A stretch of DNA of 64,000 nt, from assembly GCA_903844635.1 (NCBI GenBank), contig CAIMUF010000074.1:124001-188000 (forward strand). The letters are read 5' to 3'. The notes below the pieces were generated by a model that was given only the letters and a program-made list of their open reading frames with translations, did not search any database and had not been told where the DNA came from. The position numbers and the translations under genes were made by a program. Positions 48,914 through 56,718 of the stretch are shown here, one piece after another. The stretch is from an uncultured Sulfuricurvum sp. (lineage in GTDB: Bacteria > Campylobacterota > Campylobacteria > Campylobacterales > Sulfurimonadaceae). How positions within the stretch are numbered: the first letter of the stretch is position 1; every line of letters starts with the position of its first letter.

Positions 48914-50125
48914 TTAATGTTGAGTATTGGTAATAATGGAAAAGCAATGAAATCCGTTGTCGTAATAATAGACAAGAGAAAATCCATGCTTGTTTATGAT
49001 TTTACTGACAATGTTAAGCCCTAATCCAAATCCTTGCGTTGTGCGAGAATGTTCTTGACGTGTAAAAGGTGTTAATAGATATTCAAACTCTTTTTTCAAG
49101 GGTTCTCCATGATTAAAAACACGGATGCAATTCATCGTTATTTCAAGGGTAATGGGGAGTTGATCGGTATATTTTAGAGCATTATCAAGGAGATTTTTCA
49201 AAGCAAGGGCAAGATATTTTAAATCACCGGTGAGTGAAAAATTGGTTTTTATTTCAATTGTTATTGCTGATTCGTCAACGAGCTGGAGTTTGGAAAGAGC
49301 TTCTAAAACGAGTGTTTCAGCACTGAATGTTTGAGTATCTATGGTATCGGTTGCTTGAAGTTTTTCGATTTCTAAGAGTTCTTGTGTCAGTTGATCGAGC
49401 TCTACAAAAGAACGTTTGATCATTTCTTTGGCGCTTGAGGATGGAATTTGTTCCAATGCAAAAAGTCCTCGAGAGATTGGGGTACGAAGCTCATGTCCTA
49501 CGTCACGAAGCAACTCTTCGCGTGAGAGGATTAGATTTTCAATGGTGCGTGCCATCTCATTGTAGGTATGTGCAACTTCTCCTATCTCATCATGAGAGTC
49601 GATATGACTGCGGTTTTGGTAGTCTCCGGTAGCAAATTTACGCATACTGGATGCGATGGAGCGCAATGGCGAAAGCATTCGCAGGATGATGAAGAAAATA
49701 ATAGCCAATACGGCGATATCCAAAGCAACGAGAGAACCAACTATCCATCCATCTTTTTTTGCCTCGCCAAGTGTCGTATCGCGAAGATACAATTCCTCAT
49801 CGATATAGCGGATATGCAGGATGTAATCGCCACTTTGCTCCTCGAAGATTTCAAATAAACCAAAGGTATGCGGCTGTTGCATGATATAGCGCTTGGGAGT
49901 GCTGGGAGACGTTTTGGTCAGGTTTAATGTTTTGAGTTTTCCCTCCAGTTCGTTACCTGAAGTAATCGCCATCCATGCAAATATTTTACGCCCATCAAGA
50001 AGATATTTTTGTAGTACAAGAGCTTCGTATTTTTGGGTATTTATGGTGTCGATTTGATAGCCAATGCCTATCATCAGGGTCAAACTGATTAGAAATAATG
50101 ACGTTATTTTCGTAAATATGGACAT
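48914..50125 (-). CDS. Sensor histidine kinase of the SHP cytochrome operon
   Basis: A 403-residue membrane kinase. TM1 (about 8-25), a short periplasmic loop, TM2 (about 133-155), HAMP (about 150-205), an H-box with H211 in DVGHELRTP and a HATPase (NLLDNALKYTD, GFGLGLNI). It is separated from its response regulator by 3 bases and lies at the end of an operon with SHP, diheme cytochromes and a Spy-like protein. That context suggests it senses redox state, a gas or an envelope stress tied to the cytochromes; the ligand is inferred from context only. Confidence 0.9.
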   Translation of the reverse strand: MSIFTKITSLFLISLTLMIGIGYQIDTINTQKYEALVLQKYLLDGRKIFAWMAITSGNELEGKLKTLNLTKTSPSTPKRYIMQQPHTFGLFEIFEEQSGDYILHIRYIDEELYLRDTTLGEAKKDGWIVGSLVALDIAVLAIIFFIILRMLSPLRSIASSMRKFATGDYQNRSHIDSHDEIGEVAHTYNEMARTIENLILSREELLRDVGHELRTPISRGLFALEQIPSSSAKEMIKRSFVELDQLTQELLEIEKLQATDTIDTQTFSAETLVLEALSKLQLVDESAITIEIKTNFSLTGDLKYLALALKNLLDNALKYTDQLPITLEITMNCIRVFNHGEPLKKEFEYLLTPFTRQEHSRTTQGFGLGLNIVSKIINKHGFSLVYYYDNGFHCFSIITNTQH

Positions 50126-50128
50126 GAA

Positions 50129-50800
50129 TTACCCTGTGAATTTGTAGCCGATACCCCACACCGACTTTATGTAAAGGGGCTCTTTGGCATCGTCACCGAT
50201 TTTTTGACGGAGATTACTGATGTGCATGTCGATCGTGCGGTGTTTAATCTCTTCATCCAGTCCAAGCGTATGGATGATTTGATCACGCGATAGATTTTTA
50301 CCGCGATTTTTGACCAAGAGGAGAAAAATATCAAACTCAATTCGTGTTAAATCGATTCCATATCCGTCCATTGTGAGGGATTTATTGGATTCATCAATCG
50401 TAAAGTCCGATACGGTAAACGTATTTTTATGACCGTAACGACGCAGCACGGCTTCGAGACGAAGTACGAGTTCTCGCGGTTCATAGGGCTTATCCAGATA
50501 ATCATCGGCACCAAGATCATAGCCGTAAATTTTGTTGCCAAGATCGGTGCGGGCAGAAGAGATAATAATGGGAATATCGAGCTGTTGTTTGATCGTTTTG
50601 GCGACATCGAATCCATCCATTTCGGGAAGCATAAGATCGAGAACGACGATATCAAACGGTTCTTTACGCACCAATAGTGCATCAAGTGCCAACTTGGGAT
50701 TACTGTACCCGAAGGTGGTAAATCCAAACGGCTCGAGATACGTGATGATCAGCTCTTGCAGCGCTATGTCATCTTCGATGAGAAGGACTTTTTTACTCAA
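50129..50800 (-). CDS. OmpR-family response regulator of the SHP cytochrome operon
   Basis: A 223-residue regulator. The receiver has the acidic pair E9-D10-D11 and phospho-acceptor D55 in VVLDLMLPEMDG, and the C-terminal winged helix ends KSVWGIGYKFTG. OmpR-type regulators bind direct repeats with about 10-11 bp spacing; a tandem 11-bp repeat lies at 53328-53349 ahead of the operon. Its start overlaps the end of the Spy-like gene by 8 bases, and the kinase gene starts 3 bases later. Confidence 0.93.
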   Translation of the reverse strand: MSKKVLLIEDDIALQELIITYLEPFGFTTFGYSNPKLALDALLVRKEPFDIVVLDLMLPEMDGFDVAKTIKQQLDIPIIISSARTDLGNKIYGYDLGADDYLDKPYEPRELVLRLEAVLRRYGHKNTFTVSDFTIDESNKSLTMDGYGIDLTRIEFDIFLLLVKNRGKNLSRDQIIHTLGLDEEIKHRTIDMHISNLRQKIGDDAKEPLYIKSVWGIGYKFTG

Positions 50801-51179
50801 TTTCCCACTCCTGCATATGGCGGATGAATTTTTGTTTTTGCGGTGGAGTTAAAATCTTATGAAGGTTTTCAAGCAGCCGTGTTTGAATACCTACTGAGAT
50901 TGTCTGCATCTCCATGCTTTTAGCACGAAATGTTTTTTCATCAAAGGTAGGATTGAGAAATAGGGCATTAAGCTCTTGCTGTGTTTTAGCGTTTTGTTTG
51001 TGATAGAGGCGCGATGAACTTTGATACTCTCGCATGGTTTCTTCAATCGCTTGATATTGTTGCTTCGTCAGCTGTAAATCATGCAAGTCCATGGGGAAAC
51101 GGTGGTGATCATCCTCCATTTTGGACGAATCAGCCCATACGAAACATAACAATGAAATGAACAGTATAAATGACTTCAT
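50793..51179 (-). CDS. Spy/CpxP-like periplasmic protein
   Basis: A 128-residue exported protein (signal MKSFILFISLLCFVWA). The mature part is helical with two LTxxQ-type motifs, LTKQQYQAIEE and LTPPQKQKF, characteristic of the Spy/CpxP family. Spy is an ATP-independent chaperone; CpxP inhibits its sensor kinase CpxA. Placement directly before a response regulator and kinase is the same layout, so this could be an accessory regulator of the kinase. That role is inference. Confidence 0.75.
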   Translation of the reverse strand: MKSFILFISLLCFVWADSSKMEDDHHRFPMDLHDLQLTKQQYQAIEETMREYQSSSRLYHKQNAKTQQELNALFLNPTFDEKTFRAKSMEMQTISVGIQTRLLENLHKILTPPQKQKFIRHMQEWEIE

Positions 51180-51182
51180 TAT

Positions 51183-52298
51183 TTATCCTTTTATCGTAAT
51201 GTGCTTGATCGCATTGTCTTCTATGGTTCCCTGCTCAACATCACTATGACACGCTTTACAGTTGGCACGGCTTTTAATACGATCGTTTTTAAACACTTCG
51301 ATTGGAATGTGCCGATGCGTACGTTTCCAAAATGGCGTTTGTGTTATTGCTATGATATCGCGATTTTGGAGTGTTTGCATCATTTTAACCGACATCTCTT
51401 GTTTTGAGTTTTCAGCAGAATGGGCAAGGAGATACTCTAAAATGGAACGAGTATCAGCAGGCTCGAGCGAAGCATCGTCCCCAAAGTGATTGGAAAGCTC
51501 CCCCATCAGTTTCGTCCACGACTGTTTAGGCAAGAGTGTGGGCGGATAGAGTGTGTGGCACGAAGCGCATTCGTTGACAAACAAAGGAAGCTCTTTTTTG
51601 TAGTCCATTTTTGGTGTGTGGGAAGCAATTAAGGGATTGTTGGAGACACTGAGTGCATAGATCAAAATCCCGATACTTCCTCCGATACCGATGATGGCAA
51701 CGATTTTTTGCAACACAGACAGAGTCGCGCTTTCTCCCTCAATATTCTTATGACCGTCAATAATAGAGGTCAAGGTACGATCCGAAGCGTGTAAAAATCG
51801 ATCGGTCATCACCCCGCCTATATGTGCTGCGATCAATACCCATAGGACATTGACGAAAAATTCATGAATCTCTTTAAAAAGATCCATTTCACTAAATGCA
51901 CCCGTGTGCAAAAAAGCAAGGATTCCCCGATTTTCTTGAATCCCGTAGGCGAGAAATCCGCTGATAATTGCTAATGCCACAGTTGCGAGCATTGCGATCA
52001 TGATGTAGCTTGCTGCCGGATTGTGCCCGACATACGTTCGTGAGGGGTTAAAAATCCCCAATAAATACGTTTTTAATGCACTGATACTGAAATTAAAATC
52101 GTTAAAACGGGAATATTTCGGTCCCATTAGTCCCCATATCAGACGAAAAAGGAGAAGTCCTGCTAAGGCACTACTGATCGCAACATGAATACTGAGCCAA
52201 CGATCTTCGTTCGTGCTGATCCATGCTCCTAAAATCATTGCTACAAATAGCCAGTGAAATAGTCGCGTTGGAAGCGTCCAGACATAAACTCGTTTCAT
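51183..52298 (-). CDS. Cytochrome b561-type protein fused to a diheme cytochrome c (DHC) domain
   Basis: A 371-residue fusion. Residues 1-180 form a four-helix cytochrome b561/Ni-hydrogenase-type b domain (TRLFHWLFVAMILGAW; FFVNVLWVLIAAHIGGVMTDRF) with TM His residues for two b haems. After another TM (about 197-218), the C-terminal part is a DHC domain with CASCH and CKACH and the signature LLPKQSWTKLMGELSNHFG. That segment is paralogous to the next gene product. It probably takes quinol electrons and passes them outward to the separate DHC and SHP proteins. In known SHP clusters the b and DHC parts are usually separate; the fusion is notable. Confidence 0.85.
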   Translation of the reverse strand: MKRVYVWTLPTRLFHWLFVAMILGAWISTNEDRWLSIHVAISSALAGLLLFRLIWGLMGPKYSRFNDFNFSISALKTYLLGIFNPSRTYVGHNPAASYIMIAMLATVALAIISGFLAYGIQENRGILAFLHTGAFSEMDLFKEIHEFFVNVLWVLIAAHIGGVMTDRFLHASDRTLTSIIDGHKNIEGESATLSVLQKIVAIIGIGGSIGILIYALSVSNNPLIASHTPKMDYKKELPLFVNECASCHTLYPPTLLPKQSWTKLMGELSNHFGDDASLEPADTRSILEYLLAHSAENSKQEMSVKMMQTLQNRDIIAITQTPFWKRTHRHIPIEVFKNDRIKSRANCKACHSDVEQGTIEDNAIKHITIKG

Positions 52299-52314: not shown

Positions 52315-52842
52315 TTATTCCCAGCGTCCATAGTTGGGAATATGTATTTCGCGTTCACGGTAACTTCCAGTTTCGGCTTTAGTATGACAGGCAGTACAGT
52401 TAGCGATGCTTTTGACTTCAGGCTGTGTGATCATTTTTTGAGTGATTTCACGGTGTTCTTTAACAAAATGAGGTGTTTGAGAAATACGAAGGGCAACAGC
52501 ACCTTTCATATCTGTAATGCGGTCATTTTTGGAAGCATACGTCATCAAATAGTTTTGAATCGTTTTTGTATCGGCGGCATCCATGGTGGCATCTGTACCG
52601 AAATGGTTATCAAGACCTTTCATCGTTTTATCCCATGAACGTTTAGGTAAAAAGCCGGCTTGATACGCCATGTGACATGCCCCGCACTCTTTTTTATACA
52701 AAGCAGCCGAAGCTTGATCTTGTTTGCTTAGCGGTTTACTGTAAGCTGGGCGTGCATGTTCCATCTCGTCATCATCGGCATACAAATAAACTCCACCGAC
52801 GAACAAAGCGGCAGCAAGAGAGATATTTAAAAATATTTTCAT
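52315..52842 (-). CDS. Periplasmic diheme cytochrome c (DHC)
   Basis: A 175-residue exported protein (signal about 1-22). Two haem-attachment motifs, C53-GAC-H57 and C149-TAC-H153, and the DHC signature LPKRSWDKTMKGLDNHFG. DHC is the natural electron donor to SHP in Rhodobacter and Shewanella. Spacing to neighbours is 11 and 16 bases. It is paralogous to the C-terminal domain of the cytochrome b fusion. Confidence 0.88.
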   Translation of the reverse strand: MKIFLNISLAAALFVGGVYLYADDDEMEHARPAYSKPLSKQDQASAALYKKECGACHMAYQAGFLPKRSWDKTMKGLDNHFGTDATMDAADTKTIQNYLMTYASKNDRITDMKGAVALRISQTPHFVKEHREITQKMITQPEVKSIANCTACHTKAETGSYREREIHIPNYGRWE

Positions 52843-52853
52843 AATAGATCCTT

Positions 52854-53261
52854 TTAATTTTTAATGATATAGGTGAGTACATCACCTTTTTCTTGGGCAG
52901 TTCCCTCTCGAGCATAAACATCCACAAAATTACGTTTGAGCCATTTTGTAACCTCTTTTACACTGGTGAGGCGTTGAGGATTGGCTTTAGGTGAGAGTGG
53001 TTCGATTACTTTTCCTGTAAGCGAATTCTTGCCGTAATTACTGAGATTGGTCGTATGGCACGATGTACAGGAGATCGGTTTGCCTTGTTTGCCTGTATGG
53101 GTTGAGGTGAAAATTTCTTTTCCTCTGGCAGCATCAAATCCTGCAAACGATTTATTCTCAGTTTTAGCCACGCTTGAGAGTTCATTCATGTATTGAACAA
53201 CTTCGGTTGATGCTCCCATGAGAGACATAGAACCTATAAGTAAGATAGTCAGGTATTTCAT
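52854..53261 (-). CDS. SHP-type monohaem cytochrome c (sphaeroides haem protein family)
   Basis: A 135-residue exported protein (signal MKYLTILLIGSMSLMGA). One haem motif C65-TSC-H69. The surroundings GKEIF, TGKVIEPLSPKANPQRLT and KWLKRN match SHP of Rhodobacter sphaeroides, in which an Asn is the sixth, displaceable haem ligand; N111 in KRNF is the equivalent. The Cys pair that forms a disulfide after that Asn in R. sphaeroides SHP is absent here. SHP binds O2 and NO, but its role is unsettled. It is the first gene of the six-gene operon. Confidence 0.8.
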   Translation of the reverse strand: MKYLTILLIGSMSLMGASTEVVQYMNELSSVAKTENKSFAGFDAARGKEIFTSTHTGKQGKPISCTSCHTTNLSNYGKNSLTGKVIEPLSPKANPQRLTSVKEVTKWLKRNFVDVYAREGTAQEKGDVLTYIIKN

Positions 53262-53327
53262 ACCGTCCTCCTTGGTTTTAGATACTGTAATGATAAAGGA
53301 AAGGTGTGAATATGTGCAGGAGAGTCT

Positions 53328-53349
53328 CTTGACAGTTTCTTGACAATTT
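53328..53349. promoter_or_regulatory. Tandem 11-bp direct repeat, candidate response-regulator site
   Basis: CTTGACAGTTT (53328-53338) is followed at once by CTTGACAATTT (53339-53349), identical at 10 of 11 positions with a one-helical-turn period. It lies between the SHP operon (starting 53261, minus strand) and the P-type ATPase gene (53422, plus strand). Such direct repeats are the usual targets of OmpR-family regulators, and the operon encodes one. TTGACA also equals a sigma70 -35 box; both readings could apply. Confidence 0.5.
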
Positions 53350-53421
53350 CATGTAAGTGCTTTAACAACAAAATTAAAGAATCACACAATACAATAGAGG
53401 AATTAGAAAAGAGAAATCATA

Positions 53422-55923
53422 ATGAGCAAAAAAATGGATATTAGTGGCTTAAGTACTACCCAGGCAAGAGAACGACTGATTCAGTATGGTCGTAATATGC
53501 TTCCTGACGGTGAGCCAAAAACACTTCTATCGCTTATTTTTAAAGTCGTACGTGAGCCGATGTTTTTGATGCTTTTGGGTGCTGGATTTATTTATTTGGC
53601 TCTTGGTGATCGTGCTGAAGCTGCATTTTTACTGGCTTTTGTTTTTGTAGTTATCGGTATTACGTTGGTGCAGGAACACAAAACACAGAGGGCATTGGAG
53701 TCATTACGCGATCTTTCTGCACCCCGTGCGTTAGTACTTCGAGACGACAAAGAGTTGCGTATCCCAAGCCAAGAAGTGGTTCCAGGTGATGTGATGGTAC
53801 TGCATGAAGGTGATCGTATCGCGGCGGATGCACAGCTTGTAAGTGGACAGTTATCGGTGGATGAGTCGCTGCTTACGGGCGAATCCGTGAGTGTGGATAA
53901 AACAGCAGGTTCCGAAGATTTTTCATCACTGTTTGCAAGTACGGTAGTGACGAAGGGCTTTGGACTCGCGATTGTACAAACAACAGGAATTGAAACGGCA
54001 GTGGGGCATATCGGACAAGCCCTGGCTCTCACAGAAGAAACTCCTTCTGGGCTTCAAGATGCCTCGCGGACTTTTGTTCGTACGTTAACGATGCTTGCCA
54101 TTGGTTTGGCCTTGCTGCTTGTATTGTTGAATTGGTTATGGAATAATCAGTCAATATTGAAAAGTATTCTCTCGGGAATTGCCCTTTCAATGGCAATTTT
54201 ACCCGAAGAAATTCCTGTAATCCTCACAGTTTTTTTGGCACTTGGCGCGTGGCGAATCAGTAAAATAAATGTACTGACACGCAATGTTACGGCTGTTGAG
54301 GCATTAGGTGCTATCACGATACTGGCGGTCGATAAAACAGGGACGTTGACCCAAAATCGTATGGAAGTCGCTGAACTCTCTGTCAACAATCTAGCCTTCT
54401 CTGCCGCAGAAGAGCGTGAATTGCCTGAGATGTTTCATACTTTGGTCGAATTTACCATGTTGGCCACACCAGTGGATCCCTTTGATCCCATGGAAAAAGC
54501 CATTCAGTTATTCGGCAAAACGCATTTAAGCGGTACGGAACATATCCATGATGATCGTACCTTAGAGTTTCAGTATGAGCTTTCACCTGATATTCTGGCA
54601 ATGACGCATGTCTATTCTGACGAAAAACCGTCGTTATATTTGCTGGCGGCCAAGGGAGCACCTGAAGCTGTTGCCGATCTGTGTCATCTGAGTCAATCGG
54701 AACTTCACACTATGCACCGCCAAGTGGAACAGATGGCAAAGCGCGGGCTTCGAGTATTGGGTGTTGCCAGAGGTGCGTGGCAAGCGCCAAAAGACAATTG
54801 TGATTGGCCTGCAAGCCAGCATGAATTTGATTTTACCTTTTTGGGGCTCATAGGCTTTATGGATCCTCCGAGACCGGAAGTACCTGCGGCAATTGCTCAA
54901 TGTCGCAGTGCAGGTATTCGTGTCCTTATGATTACAGGTGACCATCCCCAAACGGCCCGTTCAATAGCGAAACAAGTAGGTTTATCTGAAAACGCTGAAG
55001 TAATATTGGGTGATGAGATTGCCATTTTGAATGATGCTGATCTATTCCATCGCCTTGAGAAAATGGATGTTTGTGCACGTATGAGACCTGAGCAAAAACT
55101 GCGTCTCGTGCGTGTACTCCAAGAGGGAGGGAATGTAGTAGCAATGACGGGTGACGGAGTCAATGATGCTCCTGCGCTCAAAGCGGCGGATGTTGGTATC
55201 GCTATGGGGGAGCGCGGTACAGATGTTGCCAGAGAATCGGCAGCGCTTGTATTGCTGGATGACAGTTTTGAGAGTATTGTGGCGGCGATTGCTCAGGGAA
55301 GACGTATCTATGATAACATTACCAAAGCAACACGCTTTGTTTTTGCTGTTCACGTACCCATTATCGCTTTGATGCTTGTCCCCGCATTGATGCAGTGGCC
55401 GGATATATTGCAACCGATTCACATCGTTTTACTGGAGCTTTTAATCGATCCTACCTGTGCGATTGTCTTCGAAGCTGAATCTGCGTCACTCAATGTCATG
55501 AATCGTCCGCCGCGCAATGCTTCATCCAACCCTTTTTCTCTCAAAAATTTGAGTTATGCCGTGCGACAAGGGCTTGGTATCACTCTCATATTACTAGTGG
55601 GATATGCACTGTTAAGAGAGTGTGGATGGGGTGAAGCTGATCTTCGACTCAGTATCTTTATGGCGTTGATCCCTATATTGTTTCTCTTAGTCTTGGCAAA
55701 TCGTGATTCAGGATTTATGTCTAAAAGCAATCCATGGATACTGACCATGTTCGGCGGAGTGAGTCTGATACTTGCAGCGGTGATATTTGTACCCTTTTTA
55801 CGTGAAATGCTGAGGTTCGCACCTCTAACGACTACCTCCTTTATTGCAGCTGCAATGATGCTGATTCTTAGTTGGATATGGCTGAAAGTCTTGCAAAGAA
55901 GTCATCAAAAAGCTTTTGAGTAA
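53422..55923 (+). CDS. P-type cation-transporting ATPase (P2-like)
   Basis: An 833-residue P-type ATPase, about 8-10 TM. The actuator TGES is at 152-155, the phosphorylated Asp is D304 in DKTGTLTQNRM, and the hinge TGDGVND is at 576-582. TM4 reads MAILPEEIPVILTVFLA, with PEEIP as in Ca2+/Mn2+-type P2 pumps rather than the CPC of Cu+ pumps. There is no N-terminal metal-binding domain. Substrate is probably Ca2+ or another divalent cation. A divergent regulatory region with a direct repeat separates it from the SHP operon. Confidence 0.93.
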   Translation: MSKKMDISGLSTTQARERLIQYGRNMLPDGEPKTLLSLIFKVVREPMFLMLLGAGFIYLALGDRAEAAFLLAFVFVVIGITLVQEHKTQRALESLRDLSAPRALVLRDDKELRIPSQEVVPGDVMVLHEGDRIAADAQLVSGQLSVDESLLTGESVSVDKTAGSEDFSSLFASTVVTKGFGLAIVQTTGIETAVGHIGQALALTEETPSGLQDASRTFVRTLTMLAIGLALLLVLLNWLWNNQSILKSILSGIALSMAILPEEIPVILTVFLALGAWRISKINVLTRNVTAVEALGAITILAVDKTGTLTQNRMEVAELSVNNLAFSAAEERELPEMFHTLVEFTMLATPVDPFDPMEKAIQLFGKTHLSGTEHIHDDRTLEFQYELSPDILAMTHVYSDEKPSLYLLAAKGAPEAVADLCHLSQSELHTMHRQVEQMAKRGLRVLGVARGAWQAPKDNCDWPASQHEFDFTFLGLIGFMDPPRPEVPAAIAQCRSAGIRVLMITGDHPQTARSIAKQVGLSENAEVILGDEIAILNDADLFHRLEKMDVCARMRPEQKLRLVRVLQEGGNVVAMTGDGVNDAPALKAADVGIAMGERGTDVARESAALVLLDDSFESIVAAIAQGRRIYDNITKATRFVFAVHVPIIALMLVPALMQWPDILQPIHIVLLELLIDPTCAIVFEAESASLNVMNRPPRNASSNPFSLKNLSYAVRQGLGITLILLVGYALLRECGWGEADLRLSIFMALIPILFLLVLANRDSGFMSKSNPWILTMFGGVSLILAAVIFVPFLREMLRFAPLTTTSFIAAAMMLILSWIWLKVLQRSHQKAFE

Positions 55924-56004: not shown

Positions 56005-56718
56005 ATGACCCCCATAATCGCCATGCTTATCCCTGCAATTGTTGCCTCCTTTGGAGGTGTTTTAGCTATTTTTTGGAACCCATCCCACAATGCCCGCAGT
56101 TTGATCCAACACTTTGCCGCAGGTGTCGTACTTGCGGCTTTAGCGGTCGAAGTTTTACCGGAACTAGGACGTGAACACGCACCTGCATGGATTTTGATCG
56201 GTTCCTTTGCCGTGGGTGGCATACTCATGTATCTCATGAAATTGTGGAGTATCAGTCTTGAGAGCCAAGAGAGTAATTCGGGCAGTAATGCTTTTAACTA
56301 CGGCTTGATCGCGGCAACGTTTATTGATGTGGCAGTAGATGGCTTTATCATTGGTGCCGGTTTTGCTGCCGGTGGTAATACTGGTTTGGTTTTAGCTTTG
56401 GGCTTATCGGTGGAACTGCTCTTTTTAGGATTAGCTTTGGTTTCTGATACGATCAAAGGATGGCGCGTTTTGGTCATGACCCTTTTATTGGCGGGTGTGG
56501 TTTTGACGTGTACGCTGTTAGGAAATTATCTATTGGCAGGTGCTTCTACGAGTGTTATTAGTGCGATATTGGCTTTTGGTGTGGCAGCGTTGCTGTATCT
56601 GGTAACGGATGAATTGCTGATCGAAGCACACGTCGTAGAAGAAAAACCATCCTCTACGCTTTGGTTGTTTGCAGGGTTCTTAGTGTTTTGGAGCATTCAA
56701 CTCTTTAGTGTTGCGTAA
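56005..56718 (+). CDS. ZIP-like metal transporter family protein
   Basis: A 237-residue membrane protein with about eight TM segments. The region QHFAAGVVLAALAVEVLPEL and the paired motifs FIDVAVDGFIIGAGFAAG and VELLFLGLALVSD correspond to ZIP TM4 and TM5, but the His residues usual there are replaced, keeping Asp and Glu. ZIP proteins import Zn2+, Mn2+ or Fe2+; the substrate is open. AAGAAGG precedes the ATG. It follows the P-type ATPase by 81 bases, a plausible cation-handling pair. Its end overlaps the convergent ABC gene by 14 bases. Confidence 0.75.
   Translation: MTPIIAMLIPAIVASFGGVLAIFWNPSHNARSLIQHFAAGVVLAALAVEVLPELGREHAPAWILIGSFAVGGILMYLMKLWSISLESQESNSGSNAFNYGLIAATFIDVAVDGFIIGAGFAAGGNTGLVLALGLSVELLFLGLALVSDTIKGWRVLVMTLLLAGVVLTCTLLGNYLLAGASTSVISAILAFGVAALLYLVTDELLIEAHVVEEKPSSTLWLFAGFLVFWSIQLFSVA

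Follow-up and report, generated by a model that had tools for sequence, protein, structure and literature searches.

Among c-type haem proteins, SHP alone is described as binding oxygen, and it has no settled role (PMC2909971). In the survey of Meyer et al. 2010 (PMC2909971), SHP operons are described that carry genes for a sensor kinase and a response regulator (SK/RR), a pair considered "likely to regulate SHP". Those operons have the gene set of the locus considered here, including the CytB/mDHC fusion seen in epsilonproteobacteria, but the third of the sensor types is listed there for no species other than C. fetus and A. butzleri. An operator sequence is not named in the accessible portion of that paper (PMC2909971). 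The literature searched yielded no such operator either, which is not proof of absence.

Head-to-tail half-sites are found at the pho box of PhoB, which has a period of about 11 bp, as in the repeat upstream of the SHP operon. The KdpE site is likewise arranged head to tail, with two 6-bp repeats separated by a 5-bp spacer (PMC3264566). However, the PhoB and KdpE systems involve different genes and signals, and the response regulator of the SHP operon lies below the cut-offs for both families (145.1 bits against 296 for PhoB, NCBIfam TIGR02154). Two other OmpR-family regulators come from the same phylum, HP1043 of Helicobacter pylori and PceP of Sulfurospirillum. Unlike the operon regulator, HP1043 is an orphan and has another half-site, TTTAAG-N5-TTTAAG (PMC8345958). 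For PceP, activation of its own operon through a direct repeat has been proposed, but that site, CTATW-N17-CTATW, differs from the SHP repeat (PMC7755780). As a phenomenon, an autoregulating operator of the OmpR type is ordinary.

The CpxPRA system of E. coli and P. aeruginosa shares several features with the SHP operon: the CpxR box is a direct repeat of GT[AC]AA half-sites, a CpxP-like gene lies beside those for the response regulator (RR) and the histidine kinase (HK), and the core of the recognition helix, IDMHISNLR, is identical in E. coli CpxR and the operon regulator. In P. aeruginosa the CpxR half-sites are GTAAA and GTCAA, the same A/C alternative as in the SHP repeat, and cytochrome b561 genes, too, have CpxR sites in front of them (PMC12802237). 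There are also differences. The CpxR consensus is GTAAA-N5-GTAAA, but the SHP repeat reads GT[AC]AA-N6-GT[AC]AA (period 11) and does not conform to it; the N6 spacing falls within the N4-8 range used in PMC12802237. Overall identity between the regulator and CpxR is 36%, and at 124.8 bits against the cut-off of 341 the protein falls short of the CpxR equivalog model (NCBIfam NF008199); the LTXXQ protein matches the CpxP model only weakly (1.2e-5), far below the cut-off. The kinase, moreover, belongs to another family: it passes the ArsS-family model NCBIfam NF038389 (261.8 bits against 250), as do the kinases of four further loci (L064, L066, L068, and L070), and in this it resembles the ArsRS system of H. 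pylori, for whose regulator, ArsR, no clear consensus has been described (PMC11162790).

The window analysed here is a 64-kb stretch (64,000 nucleotides) of DNA from an uncultured Sulfuricurvum sp. It contains a six-gene operon, SHP-DHC-cytb/DHC-LTXXQ-RR-HK, with all genes on the minus strand (Table 1). The first gene is assigned through the Pfam family DUF1924, which we take to be SHP. Genes for SHP, DHC, and cytochrome b thus occur together, as in other SHP operons, and their order agrees with that in PMC2909971. The regulator has the domains of the OmpR/PhoB family (Response_reg, 1.1e-21; Trans_reg_C, 2.3e-20), and its Asp55 and Lys104 are invariant in an alignment with CpxR. The first-pass annotation had reported a tandem 11-bp direct repeat between this operon and a divergent P-type ATPase gene, and the repeat is indeed there: CTTGACAGTTT CTTGACAATTT occupies exactly positions 53328-53349 of the plus strand, where the letters are CTTGACAGTTTCTTGACAATTT. 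In the orientation of the cytochrome operon the repeat reads TGTCAAGAAAC-TGTCAAGAGAC (53345-53324) and starts 84 nt upstream of that operon's first ATG, at 53261.

Table 1. Features at the SHP locus (positions in the window)
Feature	Position	Strand	Basis
Sensor histidine kinase, ArsS family	48914..50125	-	NF038389
OmpR/PhoB-type response regulator, proposed binder	50129..50800	-	Pfam Response_reg, Trans_reg_C
Periplasmic LTXXQ / CpxP-like protein	50793..51179	-	Pfam PF07813/PF13801
Cytochrome b561 fused to DHC domain	51183..52298	-	ORF and Pfam
Soluble dihaem cytochrome c (DHC)	52315..52842	-	ORF and Pfam
SHP-like monohaem cytochrome, first operon gene	52854..53261	-	Pfam DUF1924
TATCAT, putative SHP-operon -10 box, +50 from half-site 1	53290..53295	-	Conserved element and promoter scan
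TTCACA, local TTgAcA element, +35 from half-site 1 (about -27)	53305..53310	-	Conserved element in relatives
Putative operator half-site 2, TGTCAAGAGAC (11-bp period)	53324..53334	-	Conserved in genus loci
Putative operator half-site 1, TGTCAAGAAAC	53335..53345	-	Conserved in 16/16 readable genus loci
ATPase core promoter block AAATTAAAGAATCACACAATACAAT, independent of the repeat	53371..53395	+	Similar block in G005 and G024, which lack the repeat
P-type cation ATPase, divergent neighbour; not supported as target	53422..55923	+	Pfam; orthologue comparison

When the 22-mer is sought with R at the variable base and up to 3 mismatches, the window contains 1 match, and dinucleotide shuffles lead one to expect 0.01. 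A 20-mer with up to 3 mismatches likewise has 1 match in the whole source genome (2.67 Mb). However, uniqueness by itself is a weak argument, because the reversed-pattern control gives 2 genome matches at equal tolerance. The strong evidence is conservation. Among 41 genomes of the genus, 17 have an SHP gene, and upstream DNA is readable at 16 of these loci (the remaining contig begins at SHP). All 16 of these Sulfuricurvum-type loci have the repeat, and it starts at -83 to -85 relative to the SHP start. Between -350 and -100 the loci sort into 8 clusters of unrelated DNA, one of which, with 3 members, is the ATPase neighbourhood; because the repeat is kept in every locus while the DNA beyond it is not, the conserved unit runs from the repeat to the SHP start. 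With 1 mismatch allowed, TGTCAAGAAANTGTCAA is found in 21/41 genus genomes, against 3 matches in 3 genomes for the reversed pattern. The regulator gene is also present in 17/41 genomes, the same ones as SHP apart from two. In G004, which has SHP, the regulator reading is interrupted by a stretch of N, and in G025, which has the regulator and cytochrome b, the contig stops before SHP; both mismatches are thus due to assembly gaps.

Conservation extends beyond the genus; the first-pass annotation had named a lack of it upstream of orthologous operons as grounds for abandoning its proposal. Of 398 genomes sampled from the order, 94 have SHP. Each locus was scored for TGT.AAG occurring twice at period 11 (TGT[AC]AAG-N4-TGT[AC]AAG; maximum 12 letters), with plain mononucleotide shuffles as the shuffle control; 111 loci were examined, and dropping 4 without SHP and 2 without upstream DNA left 105. 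An OmpR-type regulator is encoded in the operon at 83 of these, where the score is 12 in 53 loci, 11 in 23, 10 in 6, and 9 in 1, so that 76/83 reach at least 11 and 82/83 at least 10. The period is specific: at each of periods 8, 9, 10, 12, 13, and 14, at most 2 of the 83 operons score 11 or more. The half-sites are therefore tandem and about one helical turn apart, as at an operator of the OmpR/PhoB type. Since the score was designed after the genus sequences had been seen, the 68 regulator-bearing loci from outside the genus provide a fairer test, and here 61/68 score at least 11 and 67/68 at least 10. A further sample, which overlaps partly with the first, comprises 80 named loci, often from the same species; 66 of them have both the regulator and readable upstream DNA, and 64 of these score at least 10 and 56 at least 11.

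The repeat also goes together with the regulator gene. The 22 loci with no regulator comprise 9 that are uninformative because their contigs are short, 12 on long contigs, and L065. None of the 12 long-contig operons scores 10 or more (1/13 if L065 is counted). A Fisher test of repeat against regulator presence, in which the regulator-less class is restricted to loci with at least 4.5 kb of downstream DNA and L065 is omitted on account of the kinase gene in front of its operon, gives 9e-11, a value that is nominal because the species are related. The same contrast is seen inside a single genus (g39), where G391 has the regulator and a weak repeat and both are missing from the operon in G085 and G099. 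A few loci depart from the rule. L065 scores 11 with no regulator in the local operon, a kinase gene lying just upstream; the nearest regulator elsewhere in that genome (G059) is 46% identical. L276 scores 12, and its local operon also has no regulator. Conversely, the regulator is present but the repeat is absent from the 164 bp of upstream DNA of L299, and absent at the SHP start of L254, where an extra gene is inserted before SHP. L204 has a weak repeat (9/12), with one more change, whose spacing to a -10 box is the usual one.

The repeat is also held in a fixed position relative to the core promoter. The consensus of the 68 non-genus loci scoring at least 11 is TGT[AC]AAGAAANTGT[AC]AAG, followed at fixed offsets by TT.A.A (TTgAcA) at +35, a T-rich segment at +44/45, and a TA-box at +50, where the -10 boxes are TATACT, TATAAT, and similar sequences. 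A conserved position upstream of the core promoter is as expected for an operator of the OmpR/PhoB type. In the window the half-sites are centred on an activator position, at about -62 and -51 relative to the predicted transcription start and upstream of the -35 region. The element at +35 may belong to the core promoter or represent a third, inverted half-site; it could also be a feature of promoters in Campylobacterota. It lies only 9 bp before the -10 box, an unusual spacing for a -35 box.

Taken together, the conservation of the repeat, its co-occurrence with the regulator gene, and the fit of half-site, period, and promoter position make it very probable, as far as DNA comparison can tell, that the repeat serves as operator for the ArsS-family two-component system that the SHP operon itself encodes. 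The part of the first-pass annotation that saw in it an OmpR-type site for the operon's regulator is thus upheld. We infer binding, its dependence on phosphorylation, activation rather than repression, and a signal, in the following way. The ArsS-family kinase would phosphorylate the OmpR-type regulator, with the CpxP-like periplasmic protein probably modulating the kinase. Two regulator molecules would then bind TGTCAAGAAAC-TGTCAAGAGAC head to tail, just upstream of the -35 region, and would recruit RNA polymerase to the SHP promoter. Consequently, the six-gene operon would be activated and its own regulator amplified by autoregulation.

Sites elsewhere in the phylum bear on whether this regulator is the binder. 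The exact pattern occurs at 52 sites in 45/397 phylum genomes, and the reversed-pattern control gives 0. By coordinate comparison and reading of the loci, 35 of the 52 sites belong to SHP operons; the others lie at eptA (4, reversed), an eptA remnant (1), nhaA (3), a cytB-RR-HK operon that lacks SHP (1), a porin gene divergent from SHP (1), and a c-type cytochrome gene (1), and 6 have no assignment. In particular, the repeat precedes the cytB-RR-HK operon of L371 and the nhaA-RR-HK operons of L372 and L373, whose regulators have a like recognition helix. Because such operons also have the repeat, its distribution reflects the type of regulator and not just SHP. The source genome itself offers no regulon for a cross-check, because the SHP site is the only one found there: a search with the full promoter signature gives 1 exact match, the next best has 2 mismatches, and there are 12 matches against 8 in the control. 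The kinases of L372 and L373 have a different sensor region. In an Arcobacter-type cluster (L070:1500-8450) the order is repeat-eptA-PAP2-dgkA-repeat-SHP operon, and in L361, from the SHP-less genome G192, a regulator and a shortened kinase lie behind a c-type cytochrome gene, beside an eptA remnant where the repeat persists.

Other explanations of the repeat can be weighed against these observations. Paralogues of the OmpR family are numerous (up to 72 candidates were scored per genome) and half-sites are alike across the family, so another OmpR-family regulator, or a repressor, might bind a repeat that merely happens to precede the SHP operon. This is quite improbable, given that the repeat is missing from all 12 long-contig operons that lack the regulator gene, L065 apart, and accompanies regulators with a like helix where there is no SHP. 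Within the helix, R-A-I-D occurs mostly with TGTAAA and R-T-I-D with either form of the half-site, a correspondence that is not decisive. A further view, that the perfect TTGACA in each plus-strand unit is an alternative -35 box for the ATPase, repeated by chance or by duplication, is barely credible and was rejected. There is no good -10 box 16-18 nt downstream, and the repeat is conserved at loci that have no ATPase. The first-pass annotation had also named mapped -35 boxes that explain both copies as grounds for abandoning its proposal. The sigma-70-like matches found in a scan of the gap, TGCACA-N17-TATCAT on the minus strand and, as the only one on the plus strand, TTAACA-N17-CACAAT (TTAACA at 53362), use neither copy of the repeat.

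The first-pass annotation had also suggested that the repeat could control both divergent units, and on this point the comparison goes against it. It is conceivable that one regulator dimer governs both the SHP operon and the P-type ATPase. The distance from the repeat to the ATPase start downstream is 73-94 nt, and that to the probable ATPase -10 box about 50-60 bp; the repeat also stays between the two genes in G000, G002, and G008, even though the G002 ATPase is only 84% identical. Because a reversed copy precedes eptA in four Arcobacter-type genomes, reversed sites may work, and orientation may not forbid activation. However, the repeat is about 13 bp further from the ATPase -10 box than in the eptA cases, and those three genomes are the only ones among the 16 genus loci in which the ATPase adjoins the SHP operon. 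An ATPase orthologue is present in 12/41 genus genomes, and the repeat is found upstream of exactly the 3 that adjoin SHP and is absent upstream of the other 9. Furthermore, the ATPases of G005 and G024 (83-84% identical) keep the core promoter without the repeat, in genomes that have neither SHP nor the regulator. With 8 different upstream neighbourhoods among the 16 loci as well, joint control appears unlikely, and regulation of the SHP operon by its own two-component system is the reading that we retain.

Control of SHP operons by their own kinase/regulator pair had previously only been inferred (PMC2909971), and an operator found across the order makes that idea directly testable. It also gives a search string for the regulon, with eptA, nhaA, and cytochrome targets in some genomes, and it provides an ArsS-family system with a DNA code, H. 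pylori ArsR being without a clear consensus (PMC11162790). Family f14 (L362, L364-L367) is unlike the SHP operons in that its LTXXQ-RR-HK cluster lies apart from SHP and the repeat was not found nearby; its helix reads RSIDTHIRNLR, or RSVDTHISNLR in G351, and its kinases, of which two were compared with the ArsS-family model, resemble that family but score below the cut-off. Tentatively, TGT[AC]AAG-N4-TGT[AC]AAG may be the ancestral operator of the ArsR/ArsS lineage in Campylobacterota, the module that governed SHP having later become ArsRS, although we would sooner doubt this than assume it. On such a history, a CpxP-like protein, a regulator, and an ArsS-family kinase would first have governed the SHP cytochrome pathway and, in some genomes, envelope and ion functions (eptA-PAP2-dgkA, nhaA, a porin); in the Helicobacter-type family the module would then have left SHP, changed its helix, and become the acid-response system ArsRS. 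If so, the phylum would have a Cpx-like regulon for envelope and redox stress that can be read directly from the operator.

Two further features lie near these loci. A small membrane protein gene at 56005-56718 looks ZIP-like by eye only, with no Pfam or NCBIfam family above cut-off. It is a recurrent neighbour, located behind the kinase gene in L052, L053, L055, L062, and L064, upstream of SHP in L162 and L166 (73-76% identical), and behind the ATPase in G000, G002, and G008. Finally, G017 has a second, reversed near-match of the repeat (C5:67633-67649, about L064:8434), in the interval that separates the kinase gene's end from the ZIP-like gene.
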